In this document: one piece after another, positions 880 to 35,919 of the stretch | Numbering within the stretch: position 1 is the stretch's first letter | Layout of the letters: each line of letters opens with the position of its first letter | Assembly (NCBI GenBank): GCA_021298195.1 | Contig: JAJTEQ010000024.1 | Span: forward strand, 1 to 36,635 | Reading direction: 5' to 3' | DNA length: 36,635 nt | Source of the DNA: Ilumatobacteraceae bacterium | Lineage (GTDB): Bacteria; Actinomycetota; Acidimicrobiia; Acidimicrobiales; Ilumatobacteraceae | Position numbers and translations under genes: made by a program | The notes under the pieces: model-generated | What the model saw: only the letters and a program-made list of their open reading frames with translations | Database searches by the model: none | What the model was told of the DNA's origin: nothing

Positions 880-886
880 CGAGGCG

Positions 887-2266: not shown

Positions 2267-2277
2267 AACGGTCGATT

Positions 2278-2309
2278 CGGCGGGGATACGTTGCCAACCA
2301 CCCCCGCCG
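2278..2309 (+). terminator. GC-rich hairpin after thrC
   Basis: Perfect 8-bp stem CGGCGGGG/CCCCGCCG with a 16-nt loop, starting 11 bp after the thrC stop. There is no U-tract. It could end the hom-thrC transcript or be part of the rho leader. Confidence 0.45.
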
Positions 2310-2325
2310 TGGCTATGGTCTGACT

Positions 2326-2341
2326 GTCTGGAATCCCAGAC
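2326..2341 (+). promoter_or_regulatory. Hairpin in the rho leader
   Basis: Perfect 6-bp stem GTCTGG/CCAGAC closing an AATC tetraloop, 130 bp before the rho start. The 204-bp thrC-rho gap holds this and the preceding hairpin and no convincing ORF. Autoregulated rho leaders are known in other bacteria; a regulatory role here is inference. Confidence 0.3.
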
Positions 2342-2470
2342 CGCACGAGTCTCCGCCTGGTGACAGAACCTGGGTTGGTCCGTGTGTGTTCCCCTCACTG
2401 GCGTTGGGATCGCCGGTGGTCGTGCCCTCACCGCACATCGCCGCATACCCCCGCCTGAAAGCAGGTTCTC

Positions 2471-4282
2471 GTGGCCGCAGACGCACTCGAAAAGTCGGTG
2501 CTCGAATCGAAGGACAAGGAGCAGTTGGTCGCCATCGCGACCGCGCTCGGCATCAAGGCCGGTCCTCGGGCGAAGAAGGAAGACATCATCACCAAGATCC
2601 TCGACACTGTCGGTGGACCCGGTGAGGCCGAGGCTCCGGCCGAGAAGCCCAAGCGGGGCCCGGGGCGGCCGCCCAAGGCGCGCCCCGCCGAGGATGCGAC
2701 GTCCGTGGAGACATCGGATGGCGAGTCCTCCGCCGACAAGAAGGCTCCGGCTCCTGCAGCCGCACCAGCGGTGATCCTCGGACCCGACGGCGAGCCGTTG
2801 GCCGAATGGGAAGCCGAGTTGGTGCGCCAGGGCGTGTCCACCGTGGCCGACCTCACCGGCGGCGAGTCCGCACCGTCGGGCGAGCAGCGTCAACCCCGCG
2901 ACGGAAACCGTGACGGAAACCGCGATCGCAACCGTGATCGCAACGGCGATCGCAACGGCAACGGCCAGCGCGACGGCAACCGTGACTCCAACAACCGTGA
3001 CGGCAACCGTGATCGCTTCGAGGGTGAGGGACGCAATCGTCGTCGTCGCCGTCGGGGCAAGGGCGGCCGTGACGAGGGCCCGCAGGGCGAGGATCGTGAC
3101 GGCAACTACGACCAGGGTGGCTACCAAGGTGGCGAGCCCGTGGTCCAGGAGTCGGTGCCGGTCGAGGGGTATCTCGACCTGCGCGACGAGGGCTACGGAT
3201 TCCTGCGCGTGCGCGGGTTCCTGCCCAGCCGCGACGACGCCTACATCTCGGTGAAGCAGACCCGTCAGTACGGATTGCGCAAGGGTGACCACGTCACCGG
3301 AATCGCCCGCACGGCCGGCCGCAACGAGAAGAACCCGGCTCTGCTCGAGATCAACACCGTCAACGGTGGTTCGCCCGACAAGGCCAAGGATCGTCCGCGC
3401 TTCGAGGATCTCACCGCTCTGTTCCCCGACGAGAAGCTGCGTCTGGAGAGTCCGCTCGACCCGGGCAACATGACCGCGCGCATCATCGACCTCATCTCGC
3501 CGATCGGAAAGGGTCAGCGCGGCATCATCGTGTCGCCGCCCAAGGCCGGCAAGACCACCATCATGAAGGAGATCGCCACCGCGATCGAGCGCAACAATCC
3601 GGAAGTGCAGTTGATGGTGTTGCTCATCGACGAGCGTCCCGAGGAAGTCACCGACATGCGCCGCACCGTGCGGGGCGAGGTGATCTCCAGCACCTTCGAC
3701 CGTCCCTCCGAGGAGCACACGCACGTGGCCGAGTTGGCCATCGAGAAGGCCAAGCGCCAAGTCGAGATGGGTCGCGACGTGGTGGTCATCCTCGACGGCA
3801 TCACCCGTCTCAGTCGCGCCTACAACCTCGCGGCGCCGGCCAGCGGTCGCATCCTGTCCGGTGGTATCGATGCCGGCGCGTTGTACCCGCCCAAGAAGTT
3901 CTTCGGCGCGGCCCGCAACGTGGAGGAGGGTGGCTCGCTCACCATCCTGGCCACCGCGCTGGTCGAGACGAACAGCCGCATGGACGAGGCCATCTTCGAG
4001 GAGTTCAAGGGAACGGGCAACATGGAGTTGCGTCTCGACCGTCGTCTGGCCGAGAAGCGCATCTATCCGGCCATCGACGTGGACGGATCCAGCACCCGCC
4101 ACGAGGAGTTGTTGTTCGATCGCAAGCAGTTGCAGATGGTCTGGAAGCTGCGTCGCGTTCTGTCGGGTCTGGCGTCCGACGGCAACCCGGCGCCCGGCCT
4201 CGAACTCTTGATCGACCGCCTGAAGCAGTTCAAGAACAACGACGATTTCCTGTCCGAGATCGGCAAAACCCCCACGATGTGA
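2471..4282 (+). CDS. rho: Transcription termination factor Rho
   Basis: Hexameric RNA-dependent ATPase/translocase that ends transcription. GTG at 2471 gives 603 residues. Order: a SAP/Rho-N-like segment (~residues 5-45), an acidic/Pro-Ala linker, a low-complexity basic insert (~140-213, D-G-N-R repeats then a run of six Arg), the cold-shock-like RNA-binding domain (~230-290, [13 protein letters not shown]), and the ATPase core with Walker A P-K-A-G-K-T-T (Lys ~361) and Walker B-type [12 protein letters not shown]. Such N-terminal inserts are typical of actinobacterial Rho and increase RNA binding. The start has only a weak Shine-Dalgarno sequence, but the protein is beyond doubt. Confidence 0.97.
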
Positions 4283-4641: not shown

Positions 4642-5649
4642 GTGACGGTCGTGTCCGCACCGATGGATCCCGAGGTTCGCGCCCGACTGCTCGGTCTCAA
4701 ACTTCACGCCCTCGTGCGCGAGCACTTCGGCGACATGGAGCCCGACGCGCAGGCCGGGTTGAGTGTCGGTGCCGCCTCCAGCCACGGTGACACCGCGTGG
4801 GTGCTCGTCGAGGAGCGCACCGAACGCGCTTTGGGCGTGGCTTTGGCCTGGGCGTCCAAGCGCGGGTCGAAGGTCGTTCACATCCTCGCCTCCGATCACA
4901 CCGGAACGTTGGCTCGGCGCGCCACGCACTTCGTCACCGACCTGAAGGTGTGGAAAGTCGACGGCATCGCCATCGCGCCGTCGGCCCCTGATTCTTTGTC
5001 AGCCGAACCGGCTCCGTCGCCCGATCATCTGGTGTTCGTGGACACCATTCGGAAGAGTGGTGCCGACGTCGTGATCGAGCACGGTGTGATCACCGGCGAG
5101 GTGGTGGGGCTGGAAGTGTGTCGGGTGGTCGACGATCCGGTCACCGGCGCGCACCGACTCGAGGTGGGAGTCGGCGAACACGATCGTGAGGCGTTCGCGA
5201 TGATGCACGGCGACACGCCCACCGCGGCGTCGTTGAAGCGCATCGTCGACGTCGTCGCGCGCCATCGCTCCACCGGAGCCGATCCGCATCCGTTGAATCG
5301 ACTGGGTGCCGAACGCGCGTTGCGCCATCGCGTGATCGCCGATCCGGCCGCGATCGGAGCGTCGGACTTGCGCGCGGTGGCGTCGCCCACGCCACGTCCG
5401 AATCTGAAGGACCCGATTCCGTGCGTGGCCGTGGGAACCACGAGTGCCGGCACACCACTGGTCGCGGTCTTCTCCACGGGCATCGACCTCGACGTCGTTC
5501 CGTTCGCCGCCGACGCCCGTGCGTTTCACGAGCCGACAATCGGCGAACCCGCCGAACTCGTGATCGTCGTGCCGCTCCGCGACGTGTCACCGGTGACCGT
5601 GCGCATGGCCGATCTCCTGCTTCGCCCGGCGCGCATCATCGGTCTGTAA
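4642..5649 (+). CDS. Conserved protein of unknown function
   Basis: 335 residues from GTG at 4642; in-frame GTG at 4651 and ATG at 4663 are alternative starts. I do not recognise a named family. No signal peptide or membrane segment is visible. Residues ~35-105 alternate hydrophobic strands with charged turns (A-W-V-L-V-E-E, K-V-V-H-I-L-A-S-D-H-T-G), suggesting an alpha/beta fold; the middle contains D-T-I-R-K-S-G-A-D-V-V-I-E-H-G-V. The last ~80 residues are a separate beta-rich part with C-V-A-V-G-T-T-S-A-G-T-P-L. It sits between rpmE and prfA in the same direction, so co-expression with translation genes is plausible. Base use matches its neighbours. Confidence 0.8.
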   Translation: MTVVSAPMDPEVRARLLGLKLHALVREHFGDMEPDAQAGLSVGAASSHGDTAWVLVEERTERALGVALAWASKRGSKVVHILASDHTGTLARRATHFVTDLKVWKVDGIAIAPSAPDSLSAEPAPSPDHLVFVDTIRKSGADVVIEHGVITGEVVGLEVCRVVDDPVTGAHRLEVGVGEHDREAFAMMHGDTPTAASLKRIVDVVARHRSTGADPHPLNRLGAERALRHRVIADPAAIGASDLRAVASPTPRPNLKDPIPCVAVGTTSAGTPLVAVFSTGIDLDVVPFAADARAFHEPTIGEPAELVIVVPLRDVSPVTVRMADLLLRPARIIGL

Positions 5650-5665
5650 GCAGTCGAACCGGGCC

Positions 5666-5671
5666 TAGCCT
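5666..5671 (+). promoter_or_regulatory. Leaderless-type -10 box for prfA
   Basis: TAGCCT (TANNNT) ends 8 nt before the prfA ATG, placing the predicted transcription start at or next to the start codon. No Shine-Dalgarno sequence lies between them. Confidence 0.45.
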
Positions 5672-5679
5672 GAGTCGGT

Positions 5680-6750
5680 ATGCACGACCGTTGGGACTCA
5701 CTGCTCTCCGAGCACGTCACATTGGAATCGTTGCTCTCCGACCCGGCCGTGTTGGGCGACCAGTCCCGGTTGCGCGAGGTCTCGCGTCGTTACAAGGAAC
5801 TCACGCCGGTCGTCGAATGCATCCGCAACATCGAAGCGCGCACGTCCGACGCCGAGGCGGCCCGTGAGCTGATCGCGATGTCCGCCGACGCCACGGAACG
5901 CGAACAATTGAAGGCCGAGCGGGAATCGGCCGAGGCCGACGTGGCCCGGTTGGAGGAGGAGCTGCGCATGTTGCTGCTTCCCAAAGATCCCAACGACGGT
6001 CGCCCGGTCATCATGGAGATTCGCGGCGCCGAAGGCGGCGAAGAGGCGAACCTCTTCGCCCGTGATCTGTACGAGATGTACCTCGGCTACGCGACGCGAC
6101 GGGGTTGGAAGGTGGAGACGCTCTCGGTGGACCCCAGCGATCTCGGTGGCGTCAATCAGGCCACGTTCGTGGTGCGCGGCGACGACGCCTGGTCGCGATT
6201 GAAGTTCGAGGGCGGACCGCATCGTGTGCAGCGTGTTCCCGTCACCGAGAGTCAAGGCCGTATCCACACCTCGTCGGCCACGGTGATGGTGTTGCCCGAG
6301 GCCGAAGAGGTCGACGTGCACGTCGACGACAAGGACCTGCAGATCGACGTGTACCGCGCGAGCGGTCCGGGTGGTCAGGGTGTGAACACCACCGACTCGG
6401 CGGTGCGCATCACGCACCTCCCCACGGGTCTGGTGGTCACGATGCAGGACGAGCGCAGCCAGTTGCAGAACCGCGCGCGGGCCATGACGGTGTTGCGGTC
6501 GCGTTTGTTGAAACTGGCCCAGGACGAGATGGACGCCAAGATGTCGGCCGAGCGTCGTTCGCAGGTGGGTGGTGGCGGTCGCGGAGAGAAGATCCGCACC
6601 TACAACTTCAAGGAGAACCGACTCACCGACCATCGCATCGGCTTCACGATCTATTCGCTCGGCGACGTGTTGGCCGGTGATCTCGACGGCGTCGTGGATG
6701 CGTTGGCCACCGACGAACGCTCGCGTCAATTGGCCGGCGATCGGGACTGA
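5680..6750 (+). CDS. prfA: Peptide chain release factor 1
   Basis: Class I release factor that reads UAA/UAG and triggers peptidyl-tRNA hydrolysis in the ribosome. 356 residues, the normal length. The catalytic G-G-Q motif is present in S-G-P-G-G-Q-G-V-N-T-T-D-S-A-V-R, and the anticodon-like tripeptide region lies in T-E-S-Q-G-R-I-H-T-S. An N-terminal coiled-coil-like domain (residues 1-100) is rich in Glu/Arg/Ala. The Gln of G-G-Q is the target of the methyltransferase encoded next (prmC, 4 bp downstream). Start is ATG with a leaderless-type -10. Confidence 0.97.
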   Translation: MHDRWDSLLSEHVTLESLLSDPAVLGDQSRLREVSRRYKELTPVVECIRNIEARTSDAEAARELIAMSADATEREQLKAERESAEADVARLEEELRMLLLPKDPNDGRPVIMEIRGAEGGEEANLFARDLYEMYLGYATRRGWKVETLSVDPSDLGGVNQATFVVRGDDAWSRLKFEGGPHRVQRVPVTESQGRIHTSSATVMVLPEAEEVDVHVDDKDLQIDVYRASGPGGQGVNTTDSAVRITHLPTGLVVTMQDERSQLQNRARAMTVLRSRLLKLAQDEMDAKMSAERRSQVGGGGRGEKIRTYNFKENRLTDHRIGFTIYSLGDVLAGDLDGVVDALATDERSRQLAGDRD

Positions 6751-6754
6751 TCTC

Positions 6755-7627
6755 GTGGCGGACGTCGAACGCCCGATCACCTGGCGCGAACTTCTCGCCG
6801 AGACCACGGTGGTGCTGGGCGAACGCCCCGCGGCGCGGTGGTTGTGCGAGACGGCCTGCGGATTGCACGGCGACGAATTCCTGGCCGCTCTCGACGAGTC
6901 GGCCACCGAACGCATGGTGGGGCATCTGGACGCCATGGTCGCCCGCCATCGATCGGGTGAACCGCTCGCCTACGTCATGGGCAGTTGGTCCTTTCGCACC
7001 ATCGACCTCATGATCGATCGTCGCGTGCTCATCCCGCGACCGGAGACGGAATGGGTCGCCGAGAAGGCGATCGAGATCGCCCGTGCATGCGGGCCGTCCC
7101 GACTGGTGGCCGATCTCGGTACGGGTTCGGGGGCGATCGGATTGTCGATGGCGGTCGAGTTGCCGTTGAGCGGCACGGAGGTGTGGCTCACCGACGCGTC
7201 GGTCGACGCTCTCGACGTCGCCCGCGCCAACGCCGCCGGAATCGGGCGTTCGGCGGCCAACGTTCGTTTCGCCCACGGTTCGTGGCTCGCGGCGTTGCCC
7301 GACGAGTTGCGGGGTCGCTTCGACGTGATCGTCAGCAATCCTCCCTACATCGACGTCGACGATTCCGAGGTGCAGCTGTCGGTGCGCGAATGGGAGCCGG
7401 CATCGGCGTTGTTCGCTCCGTCCGGCGGATTGGGTGACATCGTCGCGATCGTCGCCGAGTCGCCGAAGTGGTTGCGCCCGGGCGGTTGGATCGTCCTGGA
7501 GATCGGGCACCGCCAGGGGGACGACGTGTCGCGCATGATGAACGACTCGGGCTTCGTCGACGTGACCGTCCTGCCGGATCTGGCCGGTCGTCCGCGCGTG
7601 GCTCTCGGTCGAACCGTGCTCTCCTGA
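6755..7627 (+). CDS. prmC: Release factor glutamine methyltransferase
   Basis: SAM-dependent methylation of the G-G-Q glutamine of RF1/RF2. GTG at 6755, 4 bp after the prfA stop, gives 290 residues starting V-A-D-V-E-R-P-I-T-W-R. The helical N-terminal domain (~1-80) is followed by P-R-P-E-T-E, the SAM motif D-L-G-T-G-S-G-A-I-G and the catalytic N-P-P-Y loop (S-N-P-P-Y-I). The frame is open further upstream but overlaps prfA. Tight spacing to its substrate gene is the normal arrangement. Confidence 0.95.
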   Translation: MADVERPITWRELLAETTVVLGERPAARWLCETACGLHGDEFLAALDESATERMVGHLDAMVARHRSGEPLAYVMGSWSFRTIDLMIDRRVLIPRPETEWVAEKAIEIARACGPSRLVADLGTGSGAIGLSMAVELPLSGTEVWLTDASVDALDVARANAAGIGRSAANVRFAHGSWLAALPDELRGRFDVIVSNPPYIDVDDSEVQLSVREWEPASALFAPSGGLGDIVAIVAESPKWLRPGGWIVLEIGHRQGDDVSRMMNDSGFVDVTVLPDLAGRPRVALGRTVLS

Positions 7628-8138: not shown

Positions 8139-9509
8139 CTAACGCTGTCCGCGTCGAGCCTCACCCGACGAGACGGCCGCCGAGGCGATGGCTTCGGCGA
8201 CACCGACGATGTCGGTGCTCGAGCCGAGTAGGCCCACCGTCACGCGCAACGAATCCGGATGATCCAACACGAGGAACGGTTCGCCGGGCGCGGCACCGAT
8301 TCCTTGGGCGGCCAATGCCATCAGGGCCGATCGTTCGTTGGCGACGCGCACCCACAGGTTGATCCCGTCGGTGCCGGTCGTGTGCACGTCGTGCCGTTTC
8401 AGTACCTCGACCACCGTTCGACGTCGCGTGGCGTATTCTTCGCGCGAGCGTGCGAGTGCGTCGAGGGTGCCGCTGTCGTCGAGCAACTCGAGGAGCACGG
8501 CCTGCAGGATGCGGCTGCTCCAACCGGGTCCGAGCAGCCGGCGGTTCGCGGCCCGACTGATGACGTCGCCGGAACCTCCGACCGCCGCCAACCGCAGATC
8601 CGGACCGTGGCTCTTGGAATAACTGCGGATGTGCACCGTTCGGTCGGGGAGATGAGCACCGATGCTGTGCAGCTCGCCCGACGCGATGTCGCCGGCATGG
8701 TCGTCCTCGATGATCGTGAGCGTCGTCGCCACACTCGACGCCGCGATGGTGGCGGCCACGTCGGTGGCTCGCCGAGCCGACATGTTCACGCCCGTCGGGT
8801 TCTGTGCCCGGGGTTGGAGGAACAGCGCCGATGGCACCTGTTCCAGAGCGAGTCGCAAACCCTCGATGTCGATTCCCTCGTCGTCGAGGGGCACCCCGAT
8901 CACCTCGACGCCGATCTGCTCCAGGAGATCGAGCAGCGGTGGGAACGTGGGATGTTCCACCACCACGCGATCGCCCAGACGCACCACGACCTGGGTGATG
9001 CGATCGAGGGCGTCCATGGCTCCGTCGACCACCGTGATCTGGTCGGGCGCGAAGGGCCATCGCTCTCGCAAGGCTTCCTCCAGTTCGGGGAGCACCGGCT
9101 GATCCAGGTAGCTGCTGGTGAGGGTGCGATTGCTGACGTGGGCCAGAGCGGCACTCAGGTCGGGCAGGAGCGACGAATCCGGTGTCCCGGTGGAGAGATC
9201 GAGCGAGAAGTGCCCGCGGTGATCACCGTCGGCGGCGATGCGTCGGTAGCGGCGCGGCCCACCGGGTCCGGTCGGTTGGCGAACGAAGGTGCCATTGCGA
9301 CCCAATGTCTCGATGGCTCCCACGTCGGCCAGCGTTCGCCACGCCTCGCCCACGGTCGTGGGTGACACTCCGAGCCGTCGGGACAGTTGTCGAACGGTCG
9401 GCAGACGTGTGCCGACGTCGAGATCACCGGCCGAGACCATGCGTCCGATGGCGGTGGCGATACCGCGTGCACTGCGGTCGGTGATGTTGGAGCTGATGTC
9501 GTCGAGCAT
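8139..9509 (-). CDS. MocR-type (GntR/aminotransferase) transcription regulator
   Basis: 456 residues: an N-terminal GntR winged helix (~15-80, L-P-T-V-R-Q-L-S-R-R-L-G-V-S-P-T-T-V) fused to a type I aminotransferase-like domain that binds PLP. The PLP lysine lies in H-I-R-S-Y-S-K-S-H-G-P-D-L-R. MocR proteins (GabR, PdxR, TauR) sense an amine or amino-acid substrate through PLP and usually activate a divergent catabolic operon while repressing themselves. It diverges from the beta-ureidopropionase operon, with a palindromic operator between them whose exact copy precedes the aminotransferase at 19.3-20.6 kb. A beta-alanine- or pyrimidine-derived effector is a reasonable inference. Confidence 0.9.
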   Translation of the reverse strand: MLDDISSNITDRSARGIATAIGRMVSAGDLDVGTRLPTVRQLSRRLGVSPTTVGEAWRTLADVGAIETLGRNGTFVRQPTGPGGPRRYRRIAADGDHRGHFSLDLSTGTPDSSLLPDLSAALAHVSNRTLTSSYLDQPVLPELEEALRERWPFAPDQITVVDGAMDALDRITQVVVRLGDRVVVEHPTFPPLLDLLEQIGVEVIGVPLDDEGIDIEGLRLALEQVPSALFLQPRAQNPTGVNMSARRATDVAATIAASSVATTLTIIEDDHAGDIASGELHSIGAHLPDRTVHIRSYSKSHGPDLRLAAVGGSGDVISRAANRRLLGPGWSSRILQAVLLELLDDSGTLDALARSREEYATRRRTVVEVLKRHDVHTTGTDGINLWVRVANERSALMALAAQGIGAAPGEPFLVLDHPDSLRVTVGLLGSSTDIVGVAEAIASAAVSSGEARRGQR

Positions 9510-10591: not shown

Positions 10592-12040
10592 ATGGCCAAG
10601 GTATTGATCAAGAACGGAAAGGTGATCTCGCCGACCGGAGTGCACGAGAACGACGTGCTCATCGAGGGCGAGAAGATCTCCGCCGTCGGTGCACCGGGCT
10701 ACTTCGCCGGCGCCGAGCAGGGTTGTGACAAGGTCATCGACGCCACGGGCAAGTTCGTGTTGCCCGGTGGCATCGACGTTCACACCCACATGGAACTGCC
10801 CTTCGGTGGCACCTTCGCGTCCGACACCTTCGAGACCGGCACGCGCGCGGCGGCCTGGGGTGGCGTCACCACCATCGTCGACATGGCTGTGCAGCGCTAC
10901 GGCGAGAACGTGTACGACGGATTGGGAGAGTGGCACCGCAAAGCCGAGGGTGAGTGCGCCATCGACTACGCGTTCCACCAGATCATCGGTGGGGTCGACG
11001 AGAACTCCCTGAAGGACATGGTCAGCCTGGTCAAGAACGAGGGCATCACCTCGTTCAAGTTGTTCATGGCGTACCCGGGCGTGTTCTACAGCGACGACGG
11101 TCAGATCCTGCGGGCCATGCAGACCGCCGCGGACTGTGGCGCGATGATCATGATGCACGCCGAGAACGGCATCGCCATCGACGTTCTGGTTCAGCAGGCC
11201 ATCGCCCGCGGCGAGACCGACCCGCGGTATCACTCGTACACGCGCCCGTCGCCACTCGAGGCCGAAGCCACGCATCGCGCCATCGTCTTGTCGCAGATCG
11301 CCGGCAACGTTCCGTTGTACATCGTGCACATGTCGGCCGGTGACGCACTGAACGAAGTGGCGGCCGCGCGCCACAACGGACGCAATGTCTTCGCCGAGAC
11401 CTGCCCGCAGTACCTGTATCTCACCCTCGAAGAGACGCTGGGCAAGCCCGGCTTCGAAGGTGCGAAGTGGGTCTGCAGCACGCCGGTGCGTTCGAAGGAT
11501 CACGACCCGCACTACATCGGGCAGATGGGCCATGGTCACCAGGGTGATCTGTGGAAGGGTCTGCGCATGAACGAGTTGGCGGTTGTCTCCACCGACCATT
11601 GTCCGTTCTGCATGAAGGATCAGAAGGAACTCGGCTTGGGTGACTTCTCCAAGATTCCCAACGGCATCGGAAGCGTCGAGCACCGCATGGAATTGCTGTA
11701 CCAGGGCGTCGTGGCCGGTGAACTGACTCTCGAGCGTTGGGTCGAGACCTGCTGCACCACGCCTGCTCGTATGTTCGGGATGTATCCCCAGAAGGGCATC
11801 ATCGCTCCGGGCAGCGACGCCGACGTGTTGGTGTGGGACCCGAACACCAAGACCAAGATCGGTATCAACGACAAGCATCACATGAACATGGATCACTCCG
11901 CATGGGAGGGATACGTGATCGACGGCAAGGTCGACACCGTTCTGTCGCGCGGAACCGTGGTCGTGGAGAACGATCAGTACATCGGTCGCAAGGGCCATGG
12001 TCGCTACATCAAGCGCGGCCTGTCGCAGTACCTCGTCTGA
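10592..12040 (+). CDS. hydA: Dihydropyrimidinase / hydantoinase
   Basis: Cyclic amidohydrolase opening dihydrouracil (or hydantoin) to the N-carbamoyl acid. 482 residues after a GGGAGGGG Shine-Dalgarno. Binuclear metal ligands are visible: His64-x-His66 (G-I-D-V-H-T-H), the carboxylated Lys156 (F-K-L-F-M-A-Y), His189 (M-M-H-A-E-N-G), His246 (I-V-H-M-S-A-G-D-A) and Asp335 (S-T-D-H-C-P-F). Full length for the family. The product feeds the preceding amidohydrolase, and the next gene handles the later semialdehyde. The exact ring substrate is not readable from sequence alone. Confidence 0.92.
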   Translation: MAKVLIKNGKVISPTGVHENDVLIEGEKISAVGAPGYFAGAEQGCDKVIDATGKFVLPGGIDVHTHMELPFGGTFASDTFETGTRAAAWGGVTTIVDMAVQRYGENVYDGLGEWHRKAEGECAIDYAFHQIIGGVDENSLKDMVSLVKNEGITSFKLFMAYPGVFYSDDGQILRAMQTAADCGAMIMMHAENGIAIDVLVQQAIARGETDPRYHSYTRPSPLEAEATHRAIVLSQIAGNVPLYIVHMSAGDALNEVAAARHNGRNVFAETCPQYLYLTLEETLGKPGFEGAKWVCSTPVRSKDHDPHYIGQMGHGHQGDLWKGLRMNELAVVSTDHCPFCMKDQKELGLGDFSKIPNGIGSVEHRMELLYQGVVAGELTLERWVETCCTTPARMFGMYPQKGIIAPGSDADVLVWDPNTKTKIGINDKHHMNMDHSAWEGYVIDGKVDTVLSRGTVVVENDQYIGRKGHGRYIKRGLSQYLV

Positions 12041-12065
12041 AATCCCCCGTCAACAAGGAGAAACC

Positions 12066-13550
12066 ATGTACCGCATCGATCACTGGATCGACGGACACAC
12101 CGTCAGCAGCACTTCGGGTCGCACGGGAAACGTGTACGACCCGGCCACCGGTCAGGTTCAGGCCACGGTGGCTTTCGCCGACGTGTCGGAAGTCGACAAG
12201 GCCGTGGCCACCGCCAAGGCCGCGTTGCCGGCCTGGCGCGCCACGAACCTGTCGCGACGCGCCGAGATCATGTTCCACGTGCGCGAGCTGGTGGCGGCGA
12301 ATCGCAAGGAGATCGCGGCGTTGCTCACCAAGGAGCACGGCAAGGTCACCTCGGACGCGTTGGGTGAGGTCGCCCGCGGTCTCGAGAACATCGAGTACGC
12401 GTGCGGCATTCCGAATCTCCTGAAGGGTGGATACTCCGAACAAGCCTCGGCCGGTGTCGACGTGTACAACATCCGTCAGCCGTTGGGCGTGGTGGCCGGA
12501 ATCACCCCGTTCAACTTCCCGGCCATGGTCCCCATGTGGATGTTCGCCAACGCCTTGGCGTGTGGCAACACCTTCGTGTTGAAGCCCTCCGAGAAGGATC
12601 CGTCGGCGTCGATGTTCATCGCCGAGTTGTTGAAGCAGGCCGGTCTTCCCGACGGCGTCTTCAACGTGGTGCACGGCGACAAGGTGGCCGTGGATCGTCT
12701 GCTCGACCATCCCGACATCGCGGCGGTGAGCTTCGTGGGTTCCACGCCCATCGCGAAGTACATCTACGAGACCGGAACGAAGAACGGCAAGCGCGTGCAG
12801 GCCCTCGGCGGTGCGAAGAACCACATGCTGGTGCTGCCTGATGCCGATCTCGACATGGCCGCCGATGCGCTGGTGAGTGCCGCCTACGGCTCGGCCGGTG
12901 AACGTTGCATGGCCATCTCGGTCGTCCTCGCCGTCGACACCATCGCCGACGAGTTGGTGGCCAAGGTCAAGGACCGCATCCCGAACGTCGTCGTCGGACC
13001 GGGCAGTGACCCCAGCAGCGAGATGGGCCCGCTCATCAGCGGCGAGCATCGCGACAAGGTGGCCGGCTACGTCGCCGGAGCCGCCGGTGAAGGAGCCACC
13101 GTGGTGGTCGACGGTCGCGACGGTGCGCCGTCGGGCGGTTTCTTCCTGAAGCCCAGCCTCATCGACAACGCCAAGCCCGGCATGAAGTGTTACGACGACG
13201 AGATCTTCGGACCGGTTCTCACGGTGGTGCGCGTCAAGTCCTACGAGGACGGCCTGAAGTTGATCAACGACAATCAGTTCGGTAACGGCACGGCCATTTT
13301 CACTCGTGACGGAGGAGTGGCCCGTCAGTTCCAGTTCGACGTGAACGTGGGCATGGTGGGCATCAACGTGCCGATCCCGGTTCCGGTGTCGTACTACTCG
13401 TTCGGCGGCTGGAAGGCCAGCCTGTTCGGCGACCTGCACATGTACGGCCCCGACGGCATCCAGTTCTACACGCGCTCGAAGGTGGTCACCTCGCGGTGGC
13501 CCGATCCGCGGACCAGCAAAGTCGACCTCGGCTTCCCGCAGAACAGGTGA
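12066..13550 (+). CDS. mmsA: (Methyl)malonate-semialdehyde dehydrogenase, CoA-acylating
   Basis: Aldehyde dehydrogenase of the MmsA type: malonate or methylmalonate semialdehyde + NAD + CoA gives acetyl- or propionyl-CoA, CO2 and NADH. ATG at 12066 with AAGGAG 5 nt upstream gives 494 residues; the frame is open upstream but overlaps the previous gene. Visible are T-P-F-N-F-P-A-M-V-P-M-W-M, a segment special to MmsA, the F-V-G-S-T-P-I-A cofactor region, and the catalytic Cys281 in G-S-A-G-E-R-C-M-A-I-S. In this operon it should take malonate semialdehyde made from beta-alanine. Its stop overlaps the next start by one base (TGATG). Confidence 0.93.
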   Translation: MYRIDHWIDGHTVSSTSGRTGNVYDPATGQVQATVAFADVSEVDKAVATAKAALPAWRATNLSRRAEIMFHVRELVAANRKEIAALLTKEHGKVTSDALGEVARGLENIEYACGIPNLLKGGYSEQASAGVDVYNIRQPLGVVAGITPFNFPAMVPMWMFANALACGNTFVLKPSEKDPSASMFIAELLKQAGLPDGVFNVVHGDKVAVDRLLDHPDIAAVSFVGSTPIAKYIYETGTKNGKRVQALGGAKNHMLVLPDADLDMAADALVSAAYGSAGERCMAISVVLAVDTIADELVAKVKDRIPNVVVGPGSDPSSEMGPLISGEHRDKVAGYVAGAAGEGATVVVDGRDGAPSGGFFLKPSLIDNAKPGMKCYDDEIFGPVLTVVRVKSYEDGLKLINDNQFGNGTAIFTRDGGVARQFQFDVNVGMVGINVPIPVPVSYYSFGGWKASLFGDLHMYGPDGIQFYTRSKVVTSRWPDPRTSKVDLGFPQNR

Positions 13551-14587
13551 TGCGACACATGGACATCGGCGTCGTACTGCAGACAACTCCTCCGGCCGCC
13601 CGGGTGATCGACCTGGCGAAGAAGGCCGAGACCTACGGTTTCTCGCACGTGTGGGCTTTCGACAGCCACATTTTGTGGGAGGAACCGTTCCCGATCTTCA
13701 CGCAGATCCTCGCCGAGACGCGCAACGTGATCGTCGGTCCGATGGTCACGAATCCGGCCACGCGCGACTGGACCGTGACGGCCAGCGCGTTCGCGACGTT
13801 GAACGAGATGTTCGGCAATCGCACGGTCATCGGCATCGGTCGTGGCGACTCCGCGGTTCGTGTCACCAACGGCAAGCCGACCACGCTGGCCACGTTGCGC
13901 GAGAGCATCCACGTCATCCGCGAACTCGTCAACGGGCGCGCGGTCGATTACAAGGGTTCCACGTTGCGTCTTCCCTGGGCCGGCAAGTCCCGCGCCGAGG
14001 TGTGGGTGGCTGCCTACGGACCCAAGGCGCTCGCACTCACCGGCGAGGTGGGCGACGGGTTCATCTTGCAATTGGCCGATCCCAGCATCACCGAGTGGAC
14101 CATCAAGGCGGTTCGTGACGCGGCCGCGGCGGCGGGGCGCGATCCCGAGAGTGTCACCATCTGCGTGGCCGCACCCGCCTACGTCACCGACGGAACCGAA
14201 GCCGGGTTGGCTCACGGTCGTGAGCAGTGCCGTTGGTTCGGTGGCATGGTGGGCAACCACGTGGCGGACATCGTCGAGCGTTACGGTGATTCGGCGCCGG
14301 TGCCGACCGCGTTGACCGATTACATCAAGGGACGCAAGGGATACGACTACAACGAGCACGGCAAGGCGGGCAATTCCCACACCACCTTCGTGCCCGACGA
14401 GATCGTGGATCGTTTCTGCATCGTCGGCCCGGTCGAGGAGCACGTGCGTCGATTGAACGCGTTGCGTGACCTCGGTGTCGATCAGTTCTCCGTCTATTTA
14501 CAACATGATGCGAAAGACGAAACATTGCAGGCGTACGGTGAAAAAGTGATCCCCGCCATCGCCGACTACGTCGCGGCCAAGAGCTGA
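13550..14587 (+). CDS. Luciferase-like F420-type oxidoreductase
   Basis: Luciferase-like monooxygenase superfamily, 345 residues from ATG 13550 (ATG 13559 is possible, 3 residues shorter). The TIM-barrel N-terminus M-D-I-G-V-V-L-Q-T, the segment V-I-G-I-G-R-G-D-S-A and V-W-V-A-A-Y-G-P-K-A-L match the F420-dependent branch (MER-like; I recall TIGR03842 for relatives next to dihydropyrimidinases). It is translationally coupled to mmsA and lies inside the pyrimidine-type operon, which otherwise lacks a dihydropyrimidine dehydrogenase. It may therefore reduce or oxidise the ring; that is inference. A RutA-like oxygenase is the alternative, but a hydrolytic ring-opening enzyme next door argues against it. 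Confidence 0.82.
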   Translation: MRHMDIGVVLQTTPPAARVIDLAKKAETYGFSHVWAFDSHILWEEPFPIFTQILAETRNVIVGPMVTNPATRDWTVTASAFATLNEMFGNRTVIGIGRGDSAVRVTNGKPTTLATLRESIHVIRELVNGRAVDYKGSTLRLPWAGKSRAEVWVAAYGPKALALTGEVGDGFILQLADPSITEWTIKAVRDAAAAAGRDPESVTICVAAPAYVTDGTEAGLAHGREQCRWFGGMVGNHVADIVERYGDSAPVPTALTDYIKGRKGYDYNEHGKAGNSHTTFVPDEIVDRFCIVGPVEEHVRRLNALRDLGVDQFSVYLQHDAKDETLQAYGEKVIPAIADYVAAKS

Positions 14588-14604
14588 TTCGAGTAGACGA
14601 ACCC

Positions 14605-15516
14605 ATGTCCGCCACCATCACCCGACCGACGAGAGCGTCCTTCCTGACACCTCGTCGTCTGCGTCGGGTGGCTCTCTTCTTTGCATCGCTGCTGCTGGTC
14701 GCGGTGGCGTGGGAGTTGTACAAGGTGGTCGGCCCCGAAGCCGGCGGAAAGATCTTCGGCTGGAAGTTGTTGCCCCGCGCCAACGACAACGCCATGCCCC
14801 ACATCTGGGAGATGCTCGAGCGCTACGGCCGGCCCGAGGTGCGAGGATCCGATCGCAAGATCTGGTCGGTCGTTCTGGCCGGCGCGTGGTTCTCGTTCCG
14901 TTTGGCCCTGGTGGGCTTCTTCGTGGGTGCCGCACTCGGCCTGGGTCTGTCCATCCTGATGGCTCGGTTCAAGGTGGCCGAGCGGGGCATCCTGCCCTAC
15001 CTCGTGTTGTCGCAGACCGTGCCGTTGATCGCGTTGGCGCCGTTGGTGGTGTCCTGGGGCGGCAAGTTATCGATCGGGGACTGGACCTGGCCCCGTTGGC
15101 TCTCGGCCTCGGTTCTCGGAGCGTTCCTGGCCTTCTTCCCCGTGGCGGTGGGTGCGTTGAAGGGTCTCACATCTCCGCCGTCGGCGTCGATCGAACTGAT
15201 GGACAGTTACGCCGCTTCGTGGTGGCAGACGTTGCGCAAGTTGCGTTTCCCCGCGGCCGTTCCGTTCATCGTCCCGGCATTGAAATTGGCCGCATCGGCG
15301 TCGGTCATCGGCGTCGTCGTGGCCGAGATCTCCACCGGTCTGAAAGGTGGCATCGGACGTCTCATCATCGAGTACGCCCGCGAGGCCACCAGTGATCCGG
15401 CCAAGGTGTTCACGGCGGTCTTCGGTGCCGCGGCCCTCGGGCTGGCGATGTCGGGATTCGTCACGTTGGCCGACCTGTACATGATGCGCAATCGCCCCAA
15501 GGAGGCCACCGCATGA
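14605..15516 (+). CDS. ABC transporter permease (SsuC/TauC type), first of two
   Basis: 303 residues, somewhat longer than the ~250 usual because of an N-terminal segment of ~90 residues containing one membrane helix (24-40) and an external loop. At least five further hydrophobic stretches follow. The cytoplasmic EAA loop, contacting the ATPase, reads S-Y-A-A-S-W-W-Q-T-L-R-K-L-R-F-P-A-A. The gene overlaps the ATPase gene by 4 bp (ATGA), so they are coupled. With the second permease it should form a heteromeric channel, as in thiamine-precursor and riboflavin importers. Confidence 0.88.
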   Translation: MSATITRPTRASFLTPRRLRRVALFFASLLLVAVAWELYKVVGPEAGGKIFGWKLLPRANDNAMPHIWEMLERYGRPEVRGSDRKIWSVVLAGAWFSFRLALVGFFVGAALGLGLSILMARFKVAERGILPYLVLSQTVPLIALAPLVVSWGGKLSIGDWTWPRWLSASVLGAFLAFFPVAVGALKGLTSPPSASIELMDSYAASWWQTLRKLRFPAAVPFIVPALKLAASASVIGVVVAEISTGLKGGIGRLIIEYAREATSDPAKVFTAVFGAAALGLAMSGFVTLADLYMMRNRPKEATA

Positions 15517-16313
15517 GCGCGATCGAGATCGACAACATCAGCAAGATCTTCAACGCGGGCTCGGGCAACCAGGTGGTGGCGCTCACCGACATCGATCTGT
15601 CCATCGCATCGGGCGAGTTCGTGTCCCTCATCGGCCCGTCGGGTTGCGGTAAGTCGACCCTGTTGCGCCTGATCGCCAACTTGCTCGAGCCGACCGACGG
15701 CAACATCGTGGTCAACGGGAAGTCGCCCAAGCAGGCCCGACTGGACCAGGACTACGGCATGGCCTTTCAACAGTCCGGTTTGTTCGAATGGCGCACGGTG
15801 GCCAAGAACATCGAGCTGCCCCTCGAGTTGAAGGGGTGGGACAAGGCCAAGCGTCACGAGCGGGCCATGGAGATGCTCGAGCTGGTCAAGCTGGCCGATT
15901 TCGCCGGTCACTACCCGTGGCAACTGTCGGGTGGCATGCAACAGCGCGTGGCCATCGCGCGGGCGTTGGCCGTGCACCCCTCCCTGTTGTTGATGGACGA
16001 GCCGTTCGGAGCGCTCGACGAGATGACCCGCGAGCACATGCAGAGCGAGTTGCTGAACATTTGTCGCGCGTCGGGAACGACGGTGGTGTTCGTGACGCAC
16101 TCGATCCCGGAAGCCGTGTACCTCTCGAACCGCGTGGTGGTCATGTCGCCACGGCCGGGTCGCGTCACCGAGATCGTGAACGTGAGCATCGAAGGCGAAC
16201 GCAGCGACGCCACCCGCGACAACGACGCGTTCTTCCGTGGCATCACCGCGGTCCGTGAAGCGTTGCGCGGCGTCGAGATGTCCGATCACGTGCGAGGCAT
16301 CGAGGACCGATGA
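15513..16313 (+). CDS. ABC transporter ATP-binding protein (SsuB/TauB type)
   Basis: 266 residues with a complete nucleotide-binding domain: Walker A G-P-S-G-C-G-K-S-T (~40-48), Q-loop A-F-Q-Q-S-G-L-F-E-W-R, signature L-S-G-G-M-Q-Q-R-V-A-I-A-R, Walker B L-L-L-M-D-E-P, D-loop G-A-L-D and H-loop V-T-H-S. It drives import through the two flanking permeases; ATGA overlaps join it to both. Substrate type cannot be read from this subunit. Confidence 0.93.
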   Translation: MSAIEIDNISKIFNAGSGNQVVALTDIDLSIASGEFVSLIGPSGCGKSTLLRLIANLLEPTDGNIVVNGKSPKQARLDQDYGMAFQQSGLFEWRTVAKNIELPLELKGWDKAKRHERAMEMLELVKLADFAGHYPWQLSGGMQQRVAIARALAVHPSLLLMDEPFGALDEMTREHMQSELLNICRASGTTVVFVTHSIPEAVYLSNRVVVMSPRPGRVTEIVNVSIEGERSDATRDNDAFFRGITAVREALRGVEMSDHVRGIEDR

Positions 16314-32944: not shown

Positions 32945-33028
32945 GTGACGTAAACCGTGACGTGAACCGTGACGTGAACCGTGACGTGATCAGTGACGAA
33001 ATCAGTGACGAAATCAGTGACGAAATCA
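32945..33028. repeat. 12-bp tandem repeat, seven units, of GTG start codons
   Basis: Units starting GTGACG repeat every 12 bp from 32945 to 33028. All GTGs share the frame of the mutY-like gene. Units 1-4 read GTG-ACG-TAA or GTG-ACG-TGA (start-Thr-stop); units 5-7 read GTG-ACG-AAA-TCA and are open into the gene. Confidence 0.95.
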
Positions 33029-33871
33029 GTGACCGGTCTTCACGAGTCCGTCTTTTCGTGGATCACCCCGCGTTTGCGGCAGTTGCCGTGGCGCGACACC
33101 CGTGATCCGTGGCTGGTGCTCGTCAGCGAGGTGATGTTGCAGCAAACCGGCGTCCAACGTGTCCTGCCGAAGTGGCAGGCCTTCGTGGAAGAGTTTCCTC
33201 GTCCTGACGATTGTGCGCGCGCTCCGCTGGGCGACGTGTTACGCCTCTGGCAGGGTCTGGGTTACCCGCGCCGAGCCCGCAATCTGCACGCGGCCGCCAC
33301 GTCGATCGTGAACGAGCACGCCGGTGTCGTGCCGTCGACGCTCGATGCTTTGTTGGACCTGCCGGGTGTGGGGCCGTACACGGCGCGAGCGGTGTTGGCC
33401 TTCGCGTTCGAGGCCGACGCCGCCGTCGTCGACACCAACATCGCCCGGGTCCTCGCGCGATTCCACGGTCGAACGTTGAAGGCCCGCGACGCGCAGTTGT
33501 TGGCGGATGCGTGGGTTCCCTCCGGCGAGGCGTGGTTGTGGAACCAGGCTCTCATGGATCTGGGGGCCACCCTGTGTCGTCCCCGCCCGGCCTGCGATGA
33601 ATGTCCGCTCTCGTCGGATTGTTCGTGGCGGGGCGAAGGTGACGACCCGAGCGTGGGTTCGGCCGGCGTCAGCGTGGCACAGCCGCGCTTCGAGGGCTCG
33701 GACCGTCAAGCGCGCGGACGACTGATGAAGGCGTTGTCGGAACTTCCGGTGTCGTTGGTGGCGGTCCAGATGGTGATGGACCGACCCGTCGACGTGGCGC
33801 ACCGACTCGTCGACGACCTGTTGCGCGACGGATTGATCGTGCGGGACGGCGACGAACTTCGCCTTCCGTGA
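32993..33871 (+). CDS. mutY: A/G-specific adenine glycosylase (MutY-like HhH-GPD)
   Basis: Base-excision repair enzyme removing A mispaired with 8-oxoG. 292 residues from GTG 32993; GTGs at 33005, 33017 and 33029 are equally possible, and the repeat encodes T-K-S-V three times. Core motifs: L-P-W-R-D-T-R-D-P-W, catalytic Glu46 in S-E-V-M-L-Q-Q-T, helix-hairpin-helix L-P-G-V-G-P-Y-T-A and Asp147 in V-V-D-T-N-I-A-R-V. The Fe-S loop is C-x5-C-x2-C-x5-C; E. coli MutY has x6 in the first gap. The C-terminal NUDIX-like 8-oxoG domain is short or absent, as in many actinobacteria. Convergent with the selenoprotein gene (3 bp). Confidence 0.88.
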   Translation: MTKSVTKSVTKSVTGLHESVFSWITPRLRQLPWRDTRDPWLVLVSEVMLQQTGVQRVLPKWQAFVEEFPRPDDCARAPLGDVLRLWQGLGYPRRARNLHAAATSIVNEHAGVVPSTLDALLDLPGVGPYTARAVLAFAFEADAAVVDTNIARVLARFHGRTLKARDAQLLADAWVPSGEAWLWNQALMDLGATLCRPRPACDECPLSSDCSWRGEGDDPSVGSAGVSVAQPRFEGSDRQARGRLMKALSELPVSLVAVQMVMDRPVDVAHRLVDDLLRDGLIVRDGDELRLP

Positions 33872-33874
33872 GGA

Positions 33875-34420
33875 TCAGGCCGAACGGCGTGTCACCGCGG
33901 CGATGATCTCGTCGAGCGCGGCGTCGGCGTAGGCGCGCATCTCGTCGTCGGTGCGATCCTGAATGGGATGGGGCGTGTACACCCGCGCCACGTCGGGGAA
34001 TCCCAACGAGGTCGACTGGGCGTCGGCGGCCGAGACGAACTCGGACGAAGCGACGAACACCCCGGGTATGCCTCGCCTTTCCAGATCCACGATGTCGTGC
34101 ACACTGCACGACGTGCAGCTGCCTCAATCGGCGAGCGCTTCGATGACCACCTGACACTGCGTGGCGATCTCGTGGCGCAGGTCCACCGGGGCCGGCTTGG
34201 TGAAGGTGGGCTTCTTGTAGCGACGAACGTCGGCGCCCATCTCGCTGAGGCGTTCCTCGAGGCGATCGATGAAGACGTCGCCTCGGGCCTTGGAGATGTC
34301 GAGCAACCCGACGGTGAGACCCCGCAGCGATTCGGGACGACCGACCCGCTCCATGGTGGCGACACGGCGCTCGTTGGTGGGATCGAGCAGAACCGTGGTG
34401 TCCGTCGTCGCGGAACTCAT
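33875..34420 (-). CDS. UGSC-motif selenoprotein (Sec at in-frame UGA)
   Basis: 181 residues if the TGA at 34124-34126 is read as selenocysteine (U99); the two halves are one uninterrupted frame. The site reads A-L-A-D-U-G-S-C-T-S-C, i.e. U99-x-x-C102-x-x-C105, like the U-x-x-C-x-x-C site of glycine reductase GrdB, followed by I-V-D-L-E-R-R-G-I-P-G-V, also GrdB-like. Families named for a UGSC motif, with Cys replacing Sec in homologues, are known in marine bacteria and databases. A redox role is likely; the substrate is unknown. A SECIS-like hairpin follows the UGA by 11 nt. It is last of three minus-strand genes, 44 bp after the thioredoxin-fusion gene. Confidence 0.88.
34094..34112 (-). promoter_or_regulatory. 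SECIS-like hairpin for UGA recoding
   Basis: On the mRNA: GTCGTGC-AGTGT-GCACGAC, a perfect 7-bp stem with a 5-nt loop, starting at +12 after the UGA (11-nt spacer) with the loop at +19 to +23 and a G second in the loop. This matches the bacterial SECIS pattern read by SelB. An overlapping stem CTGCAC-GTC-GTGCAG (34104-34118) could compete with it. Confidence 0.75.
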
Positions 34421-34454
34421 CGTCTCACCGTCATCTCGTCCTCGTCCTCGTCAT
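34417..34454 (-). promoter_or_regulatory. Two chained mini-ORFs before the selenoprotein gene
   Basis: On the minus strand, ATG 34454 encodes M-T-R-T-R-T-R and stops at 34431 with TGA overlapping the next ATG (34434). That one encodes M-T-V-R-R and stops at 34417, its TGA overlapping the selenoprotein ATG (34420). Both joints are ATGA. A TGACGG[C/T]GAGACGATGA segment occurs twice, so the leader looks like a duplicated start region. GACGAG repeats may act as ribosome sites. Confidence 0.6.
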
Positions 34455-34464
34455 CGTCTCGCCG

Positions 34465-35919
34465 TCACTTCGTCACGACCTTCGTCACCGGTTGGCTGCC
34501 GACCTCGCCGTTGGCCCATCCACCAATGATGGCAGAGAACAGGCCGGCCCCTCCGCCGGCATGGACCAACAAGATGCCGCCGGGTCGGAACTTGGGCAGG
34601 GTCACCCCGCGCAGTCGCTCCGGAACGCCCTCGGCGATGCCGTGCGCACCGCGCACCAGATCGTCGCCCGGAATCTGCAACCGAGCGTGCAATTCCTCGA
34701 GAACCCGCTCGCGATCCCATCCCGCCTCGGCGTAGACCCGCGCGTGCTCGGGCCCCATCACCACGATCACGTCGAAGGCCAGCACGGATTTCGGATTGTG
34801 CAGCGTGCGCAGACAGGCGGCGAAGGTGTTGGTGAGACTCTCGGGGTCGCGGGCCAGTTGGTCCACCACGCATCGCGGACCCTCGCCCGGGAACACGGTG
34901 AGCGCGTCGGTGTCGGGGGCGATGCCCCGGCTGGTGGCCAGTGAGGTCCAGGGCGAACCGATCTCGTCCTCGGCGAAGCAGAAGGAGATCTTGCCGGGGT
35001 TGCCGTGCGTGGCGCGGTCCACTTCGCCCGGACGACCGCCACCGACGTTGCGAATGACCAACTGGATGGCGCGGCCGATGGTGAGGTTCGCGCGGTTGCC
35101 CTGACCGAACACGTTCATGCCGCTGTTCATGCCGATGGCACGGGTGCCGGGTCCGTTGCACACGATCACCGGGCCCACGGGCATGGTGGTGGCCAACACG
35201 CCGTGGATGTTGAAGGTGTCGTTGCAGACGGCCTCGACTCCGGCGATCACCCACGGGAGGTACTCGGGTTTGCAGCCGGCCATCACCGCGTTGATGGCGA
35301 TCTTCTCGACGGTCACCTCGACGAGGTCCGGAGGCACCACGGCCACCACGTCCGAGGGTGCGCGCGTGGTTCCTTGCAGCATGCGCATCACGCGTTGCTC
35401 GGTGGGCGGTACCACCGGGAGCCCGTCGGTCCAGCCGCGATCGAACATGGCCTCGAACTCGTCCTCGAGATCGGCAACCTCCACGCGTCGGGCACCGAGC
35501 ACGGAGCCTCCGAAGCGGACGCGCAATCGGTCCACGAGATCGGGGTCCACGCTCAGCGAACCGCAACCGGGACGGAACGCCGGCAGATCGGGGCCGAGTC
35601 CCGACACCCCGGTGACGCGTTCCCATTCGTCGCGCACCCAGCCCACCGTGCGCTCGATCTCGACGCCGTTCTTCACCCGCATCACCGTGGGTACTGTTTC
35701 GATGTCGTGGTGCCAACTCACGGCGAGGTCGGCATCGTGAGTGGCGTTCAGGCCCTCGGGAAAGCTCGGATCGTCCTGGACGTACAAGGTGACGGTCGTT
35801 CCCGAACCACGCAGTTGGGTGATGACCGGCACCACCATGCGGCACGTCTCGCATTCGCGCTTCACCACGATGACGAGACCGTCGGGAAGAACGGGCACGG
35901 TGGAGTGGTTCGCGGTCAT
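34465..35919 (-). CDS. Thioredoxin-domain fusion protein linked to the UGSC protein
   Basis: 484 residues. Residues 1-~95 form a thioredoxin-like domain with redox motif C23-E-T-C26 (V-V-K-R-E-C-E-T-C-R-M). The remainder is an unrecognised domain with G-W-T-D-G-L-P-V-V-P-P-T, V-A-V-V-P-P-D, A-G-C-K-P-E-Y-L-P-W, N-I-H-G-V-L-A-T-T and several conserved-looking Gly-rich turns. No signal peptide, so cytoplasmic. One base separates it from the upstream hydrolase stop. The natural inference is that the C-x-x-C reduces the neighbouring Sec protein or forms a complex with it. The large C-terminal part may be the catalytic partner. Confidence 0.82.
   Translation of the reverse strand: MTANHSTVPVLPDGLVIVVKRECETCRMVVPVITQLRGSGTTVTLYVQDDPSFPEGLNATHDADLAVSWHHDIETVPTVMRVKNGVEIERTVGWVRDEWERVTGVSGLGPDLPAFRPGCGSLSVDPDLVDRLRVRFGGSVLGARRVEVADLEDEFEAMFDRGWTDGLPVVPPTEQRVMRMLQGTTRAPSDVVAVVPPDLVEVTVEKIAINAVMAGCKPEYLPWVIAGVEAVCNDTFNIHGVLATTMPVGPVIVCNGPGTRAIGMNSGMNVFGQGNRANLTIGRAIQLVIRNVGGGRPGEVDRATHGNPGKISFCFAEDEIGSPWTSLATSRGIAPDTDALTVFPGEGPRCVVDQLARDPESLTNTFAACLRTLHNPKSVLAFDVIVVMGPEHARVYAEAGWDRERVLEELHARLQIPGDDLVRGAHGIAEGVPERLRGVTLPKFRPGGILLVHAGGGAGLFSAIIGGWANGEVGSQPVTKVVTK

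Follow-up and report, generated by a model that had tools for sequence, protein, structure and literature searches.

The stretch analysed here (the window) comprises 36,635 nucleotides of contig JAJTEQ010000024.1, from the draft genome bin of an Ilumatobacteraceae bacterium (GCA_021298195.1; 107 contigs, 91% complete), and carries near its end a short gene split by an in-frame TGA, which very probably encodes a selenoprotein of the UGSC family, and an upstream partner gene (Table 1). A plain open reading frame (ORF) caller reports two minus-strand ORFs at this site, 34420..34124 and 34102..33875, which share a common frame whose sole interruption is the TGA at 34126-34124. Counting that codon as a residue, selenocysteine (Sec, U), yields a frame of 181 residues that reads ...EALAD-U99-GSCTSC... 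and ends at TGA 33877-33875. The initial annotation of this DNA had described the two ORFs as one gene cut by a TGA, with GSCTSC encoded directly behind it, and had anticipated that gene callers would return two fragments, all of which agrees with the coordinates, the translated read-through frame and the output of the ORF caller. Based on the sequence evidence presented below, we predict with high confidence that this UGA is read as Sec and that the product is a UGSC selenoprotein. What appears in a draft bin as a split ORF would be a single, intact-looking selenoprotein gene, and its annotation as two fragments or as a pseudogene would therefore be wrong.

Table 1. Predicted features of the UGSC locus, in positions of the window.
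Feature	Coordinates	Strand	Description	Evidence
Predicted UGSC-family selenoprotein gene	33875..34420	-	181 residues with U99; stop TGA 33877-33875	Read-through frame; NF041046 and PF24696
In-frame TGA, predicted Sec codon 99	34124..34126	-		TGA or Cys at the homologous site; TAG in two genomes
Putative SECIS-type (selenocysteine insertion sequence) hairpin	34094..34112	-	7-bp stem, 34112-34106 with 34100-34094; loop 34105-34101, AGUGU	Sequence, fold, codon freezing, pair conservation
Partner gene	34465..35919	-	484 residues; thioredoxin-like N-terminus and conserved domain at about residues 140-470	TIGR01068, adjacency in relatives, model
Codons of the partner C23-x-x-C26 thioredoxin-type motif	35842..35853	-		Partner alignment

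The read-through protein matches the NCBIfam model NF041046 ("UGSC family (seleno)protein") with 167.7 bits (cut-off 125) over profile positions 2-146 of 147, and the Pfam model PF24696 ("UGSC") with 165.8 bits (cut-off 25) over positions 2-171 of 172; taken separately, the two halves match their own parts of NF041046 with 57.8 and 71.5 bits, both under the cut-off. By sequence, the window gene joins a bacterial selenoprotein family that has already been described, and the kind itself is known: a UGSC-containing selenoprotein family was reported in 2008 (PMC2398784), and a 2026 paper (PMC13188914) places UGSC in a group with largely uncharacterised functions. With a family modelled by both NCBIfam and Pfam, the "hidden" selenoprotein of the initial annotation was too strong a wording, while its reading of the gene as a selenoprotein gene is supported by the family models, by the homologues and by the tRNA-Sec and selD genes of the genome. 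The likeness to the described family extends to a full-length match, Sec within the UGSC motif, a hairpin after the Sec codon and the existence of Cys homologues; nothing essential sets the window gene apart, the pairing with the partner simply being given here in more detail.

Among 149 genomes searched (the source genome and its relatives), 100 contain the family, 92 of them with a match over the cut-off. From 110 loci, made up of the 30 best matches (the window gene included) and 80 stretches picked from the match list, 111 UGSC genes were read, of which 108 carry TGA at the Sec site and three a Cys codon (TGT in G108 and in G142, TGC in G101; G, C and L labels denote genomes, contigs and loci). 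Six additional matches free of stop codons yielded one more Cys form (L292, the second in G142) and five that miss the site, which brings the total to 108 TGA and four Cys among 112 readable genes. Sec or Cys at position 99 of homologues, which the initial annotation had suggested looking for, is therefore borne out, no other sense codon being found. A scan of named genomes with a partner profile extended this picture: among the best 80 of 582 loci, 71 carry TGA, two carry TAG and seven have no readable site, contig ends cut four loci (L167, L180, L199 and L206), and the record titles include Actinomycetota, Proteobacteria, Acidobacteria, Chloroflexi and others, with Geodermatophilus obscurus DSM 43162, Pseudonocardia bannensis DSM 45300 and Pseudohongiella sp. 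O18 as named carriers. Copy number differs between genomes, the matches per genome reaching 10 in G101 and five each in G129 and G148, and some genomes of the order hold many UGSC-partner paralogues, mostly devoid of the thioredoxin-like part. Four UGSC-like pieces (L293-L296, in G141, G039, G057 and G107) lack the first half in their frame and start after the Sec site; they are probably decayed or frame-shifted copies.

Behind the UGA, with +1 at 34123, positions +12 to +18 can pair with +24 to +30 in seven of seven positions around an AGUGU loop at +19 to +23, which leaves a spacer of 11 nt; the perfect hairpin reported earlier is thus correct in its coordinates and spacing. The computed fold adds an eighth pair (A-U) and shrinks the loop to GUG. 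An Rfam scan of the window returned no match. In the main clade (88 genes scoring above 230, the window's included; 76 unique over 42 nt), the seven codons that span the hairpin, from +4 to +10 after the Sec codon, are nearly frozen at synonymous sites: their top-codon fraction averages 0.975, and that of 43 other conserved codons 0.616. The loop Ser is encoded by AGT in 87 of the 88 genes, a codon used for just 74 of the 690 Ser codons in the remainder of these genes. When the TGA sequences are reduced to the 103 that are unique over 33 nt, pairs 14-28, 15-27 and 18-24 are intact in every one and 16-26 and 17-25 in 98, and the outer pairs 13-29 and 12-30 hold less often, in 83 and 78. Compensatory types occur at 15-27 (G-C, G-U, A-U, C-G) and at 18-24 (C-G, G-C, U-G, U-A), as in some paralogues that have TGG/GTC instead of TGC/GTG. 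The three Cys forms among the 111 genes retain only four, three and five of the seven stem pairs. A divergent U-G-S-C-T-P subfamily (one gene of L148, and L163-L166) retains only three pairs in the usual register; for L163, the sole gene of this subfamily that was folded, a shifted 6-bp stem is predicted.

The initial annotation had pointed to the Sec machinery as the means of checking its reading, and the search of the source genome bore it out in part: tRNA-Sec and selD were found, and selA and selB were not found in the bin. The tRNA-Sec gene, on a different contig from the UGSC gene, matches RF01852 with 67.5 bits (gathering threshold 47) and is called tRNA-Sec (tca) by ARAGORN, and selD scores 323.6 bits (cut-off 125). 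Across the genomes searched, SelB exceeds its cut-off in 103 of the 149 and SelA does so in 27 of the 41 examined, and 97 of the 100 UGSC genomes have a tRNA-Sec or SelB match. The SelB set used in this co-occurrence count, compiled by hand from the genome match listings like the other sets, comprises 105 genomes; two of them (G007 and G030) lie under the cut-off, and the combined count is unchanged because both have tRNA-Sec.

Additional evidence comes from relatives in which the codon itself differs. Candidatus Blastococcus massiliensis and Geodermatophilus obscurus carry TAG at the Sec codon, with all seven hairpin pairs in place, and in both genomes a tRNA gene with anticodon CTA, labelled tRNA-Pyl by ARAGORN, scores 64-65 bits against the tRNA-Sec model RF01852; in two Pseudonocardia genomes searched alongside, the tRNA-Sec anticodon is TCA. 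In these two TAG genes (L190 and L213) the codon follows ...EALAD, and the gene lies downstream of the partner (5001-6383). UAG-encoded Sec with a CUA tRNA-Sec is known from Geodermatophilaceae, for formate dehydrogenase and UGSC proteins, according to the passage of PMC5330540 that cites Mukai et al. 2016. Protein, hairpin and site are the same there as in the window gene; the difference is UAG with tRNA-Sec(CUA) in Geodermatophilaceae and UGA in the window. The TAG codons paired with tRNA-Sec(CTA) agree with the known cases and, as far as sequence comparison goes, are strong evidence for Sec at this site.

Several observations speak against reading the UGA as Sec. No match over cut-off to selA or selB was obtained in the 91%-complete bin, and the source genome alone is therefore no proof of a Sec pathway. 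Two types of weaker candidates were rejected, namely two SelB-like matches of 20 residues at the ends of contigs C28 and C105, read from their sequence as the start of EF-Tu, and a weak selA match on C19 (20.6 bits). Three UGSC-positive genomes (G142, G058 and G091) have neither a tRNA-Sec nor a SelB match; G142, with no tRNA-Sec match and no SelB over the cut-off, has Cys forms only (L159 and L292), and G058 (89% complete) and G091 (84% complete) have TGA forms. G101 and G108 have Cys forms as well, despite the tRNA-Sec of these genomes, and three partner loci (L172, L224 and L240, among the best 80 of 582) lack a detectable UGSC gene. With regard to the hairpin, that of the window is unremarkable on its own (z -1.23, with 28 of 200 shuffles folding equally well), comparison with random synonymous recoding gives a mean z of only -0.83 and a median p of 0.2 for the 76 unique main-clade sequences, and synonymous permutation within columns merely lowers mean pairing from 6.88 to 6.81 of seven pairs (highest of 500, 6.855), such a small change because the columns are nearly invariant. 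Judging from the aligned sequences, it is evolutionary conservation, not the fold of any single sequence, that raises this hairpin above chance.

As for the missing selA and selB, the two genes adjoin each other in G002 and G003, which belong to the same genus, and comparison of a 16-kb stretch of G003 around the pair with our bin is informative. Positions 387-3972 of this stretch match contig C4 and 11530-15998 match C47, the interval of about 7.6 kb between these flanks contains a single 65% match (8315-8940, to C90), and the part that holds selB-selA (5214-7431) has no match in the bin. C47 (4766 bases) stops exactly at the break, and C4 (4445 bases) continues for 859 unaligned bases and, if colinear with G003, stops short of the pair. 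Given these contig ends, an assembly gap is very likely the reason why the operon of the source genome is missing from the bin.

Two other explanations of the internal TGA were weighed against its reading as Sec. The call of two fragments by a plain ORF caller and the draft state of a bin of 107 contigs would fit a pseudogene or a sequencing error, in which an ordinary codon became TGA; yet the same TGA is seen in those 108 of 112 readable genes, the remainder being Cys, the downstream half is conserved as protein, and synonymous sites are extra-conserved right after the TGA. Conservation of the TGA across independent genomes contradicts this explanation, and we grant it next to no probability. 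It is also conceivable that the UGA is read through by other means, either genome-wide reassignment or near-cognate decoding as Trp, to which the failure to find selA and selB in the assembly would lend some weight. The sense-codon forms of the gene, however, are Cys in four of four cases and never Trp, the window UGSC gene itself terminates with TGA, tRNA-Sec and selD are present in the source genome, and two Geodermatophilaceae combine a TAG codon with tRNA-Sec of anticodon CTA. Genome-wide reassignment of UGA is rejected on two counts, the TGA that terminates the gene and the Cys found in place of the internal TGA, and read-through other than as Sec is, taken as a whole, very improbable.

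If the UGA is read as Sec, the question of what the protein does leads to the gene located 44 bp upstream on the same strand. The partner was found in 103 of the 149 genomes, and 96 genomes have both genes, four UGSC alone, seven the partner alone and 42 neither. In the 80 fetched stretches, the only ones among the 110 loci for which partner coordinates are available (the other 30 show none), 68 of 81 UGSC genes have the end of the partner match 12-295 bases ahead of them on their own strand; in L090, L122 and L150 the two are about 1.0-1.2 kb apart, and in L136, L149 and L158 no partner lies within the fetched stretch. The order is reversed, with UGSC first, in L148 (two genes) and in L162-L166, and in L162-L166 a single reading frame encodes both UGSC domain and partner core, as a Cys form (L162) and four Sec forms (L163-L166). 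The four fused Sec forms carry U-G-S-C-T-P. A fusion between UGSC and a domain called Unknown_1 is mentioned in the 2008 account (PMC2398784), and Unknown_1 may be the same domain as the partner core. Clustering of neighbouring ORFs in 79 of the best 80 of 582 named loci gave a partner cluster of 64 loci, a cluster of 40 loci taken for the antisense shadow of the partner, and remaining clusters of 11 loci or fewer, judged by eye to include MutY-like (11) and SelB-like (10) proteins. We also noted, picking neighbours by eye from the coordinates, that in at least eight genomes (G030, G047, G057, G064, G072, G078, G085 and G089) no more than 160 bases separate tRNA-Sec from the partner, with selB within 4 kb of the partner in all of these except G078; on the G072 contig in question no UGSC gene was seen. 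Likewise, tRNA-Sec was found in seven of 20 named loci scanned, four times directly ahead of the partner and on the opposite strand. Such steady pairing and natural fusions with a thioredoxin-containing partner point to a concrete two-protein system, and from this genomic evidence UGSC and its partner probably work together. The partner and the fusions are a lead on function and not a new kind of system.

The partner itself has a thioredoxin-like N-terminus (TIGR01068, E 5.2e-4, 20.1 bits, under the cut-off of 96.8), in which, across an alignment of 49 partners, C26 is invariant and C23 is present in at least 90%; L242 was left out of this alignment due to an internal stop. The partner model (mean predicted local distance difference test score, pLDDT, 89.7) retrieves thioredoxins for the N-terminus in Foldseek, and the partner core finds no informative match among Pfam, NCBIfam or PDB sequences. 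For UGSC, the AlphaFold2 model (pLDDT 89.7) was obtained from an alignment of 53 sequences, that is 52 of 70 references plus the window protein; beta strands and alpha helices alternate from E36 to H176, and Sec is placed between strand 91-97 and helix 100-115. A sequence search of PDB with UGSC gave no match, and in Foldseek even the best small-domain PDB matches, to flavodoxins and TIR domains, are weak (TM-score about 0.4-0.5, root-mean-square deviation about 6). These results bear on the suggestion of a thioredoxin-like fold for UGSC made in PMC2398784, whereby the protein would be a stand-alone peroxiredoxin- or thioredoxin-like selenoprotein and not half of a two-component enzyme. UxxC motifs are in fact common among the thiol oxidoreductases listed there; the topology predicted for residues 36-176, on the other hand, is beta-alpha alternation instead of thioredoxin-like, a thioredoxin-like domain is found in the partner, and the pairing with that partner is constant and accompanied by natural fusions. 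The model does not favour a thioredoxin-like fold for UGSC, and we hold a stand-alone function to be unlikely.

On the strength of the comparisons above, the ribosome is expected to read UGA 34126-34124 as Sec with SelB and tRNA-Sec, under the direction of the hairpin beginning at +12. If UGSC and its partner do act together, a working mechanism can be outlined, in which the product would combine with the upstream partner into one two-component reductase. U99, located where the helix following the third beta strand begins, would serve as nucleophile or reductant towards a substrate that the second, non-thioredoxin domain of the partner holds, and would then form a selenenylsulfide with C102, to be reduced by the partner's own thioredoxin-like domain through C23xxC26. 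The nearest mechanistic model would be the Sec subunit of the glycine, sarcosine and D-proline reductases (GrdB, GrdF and PrdB; TIGR01917, NF040794, TIGR04483 and PF07355), with which UGSC shares Sec after a hydrophobic strand, followed by a helix and then a G-I-P strand. In the PrdB-like relatives that were read, a Cys stands at +3 from Sec, the place of C102 in UGSC, and GrdB-like relatives have it at +6 (UGTGTRC), where UGSC has C105. TIGR01917 matches 40 of 53 UGSC proteins at E <= 1, with 8e-6 as the best value, and when the PrdB-like profile was compared with five controls whose columns had been shuffled, the E values were 0.13-0.47, worse than in the real comparison. UGSC differs from these subunits in falling far under their cut-offs and in having a thioredoxin-fused protein as its partner.

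Other results argue against this functional assignment. The window protein scores 15.7 bits against TIGR01917 (cut-off 602.2) and 15.4 against NF040794 (cut-off 800), and none of the 53 UGSC proteins is matched by PF07355 (the Pfam GRDB model). In hhalign, for which 21 of 25 GRDB loci were used, the PrdB-like profile gives E 4.5e-4 over 47 columns with a probability of 33%, and the GrdB-like profile E 6.8e-3 over 29 columns with a probability of 6%, Sec being aligned to Sec in both. For the partner core, Foldseek returned poor fumarase matches, none of them informative (best E 1.4e-3, TM-score about 0.2). On sequence grounds, UGSC weakly resembles the Sec site of the GrdB/PrdB reductases, and GrdB-like chemistry of the UGSC-partner pair is a tentative proposal that we consider rather doubtful. 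It is possible, if on balance improbable, that UGSC and its thioredoxin-fused partner form a selenoenzyme of two components that is widespread and distinct from the classical anaerobic amino-acid reductases, in which the Sec half would be a minimal GrdB/PrdB relative that reductively cleaves a carbon-heteroatom bond in a partner-held substrate and is regenerated by the thioredoxin-like domain of the partner.

The search for GRDB matches found none in the source genome. In the 21 GRDB-family loci of relatives, TGA precedes GTGTRC in five GrdB-like proteins and P-x-C in 15 of 16 short PrdB-like proteins, and the PrdB-like U-P-x-C proteins at L275-L291 are further selenoproteins of these relatives, three of them (L287, L289 and L290) from the same genus. 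In L128 (contig C35 of G143) the partner gene is itself broken by one TGA, into the thioredoxin-like part and the rest. In the window, the 44 bases between partner and UGSC gene (34421-34464) form an imperfect repeat rich in GACGAG/ATGACG. On the other side, a MutY-like gene (32993-33871, plus strand) runs towards the UGSC gene, so that the stops of the two genes are 3 bases apart (33871-33875); its start (32993-33028) consists of three copies of GTGACGAAATCA (MTKSVTKSVTKS).
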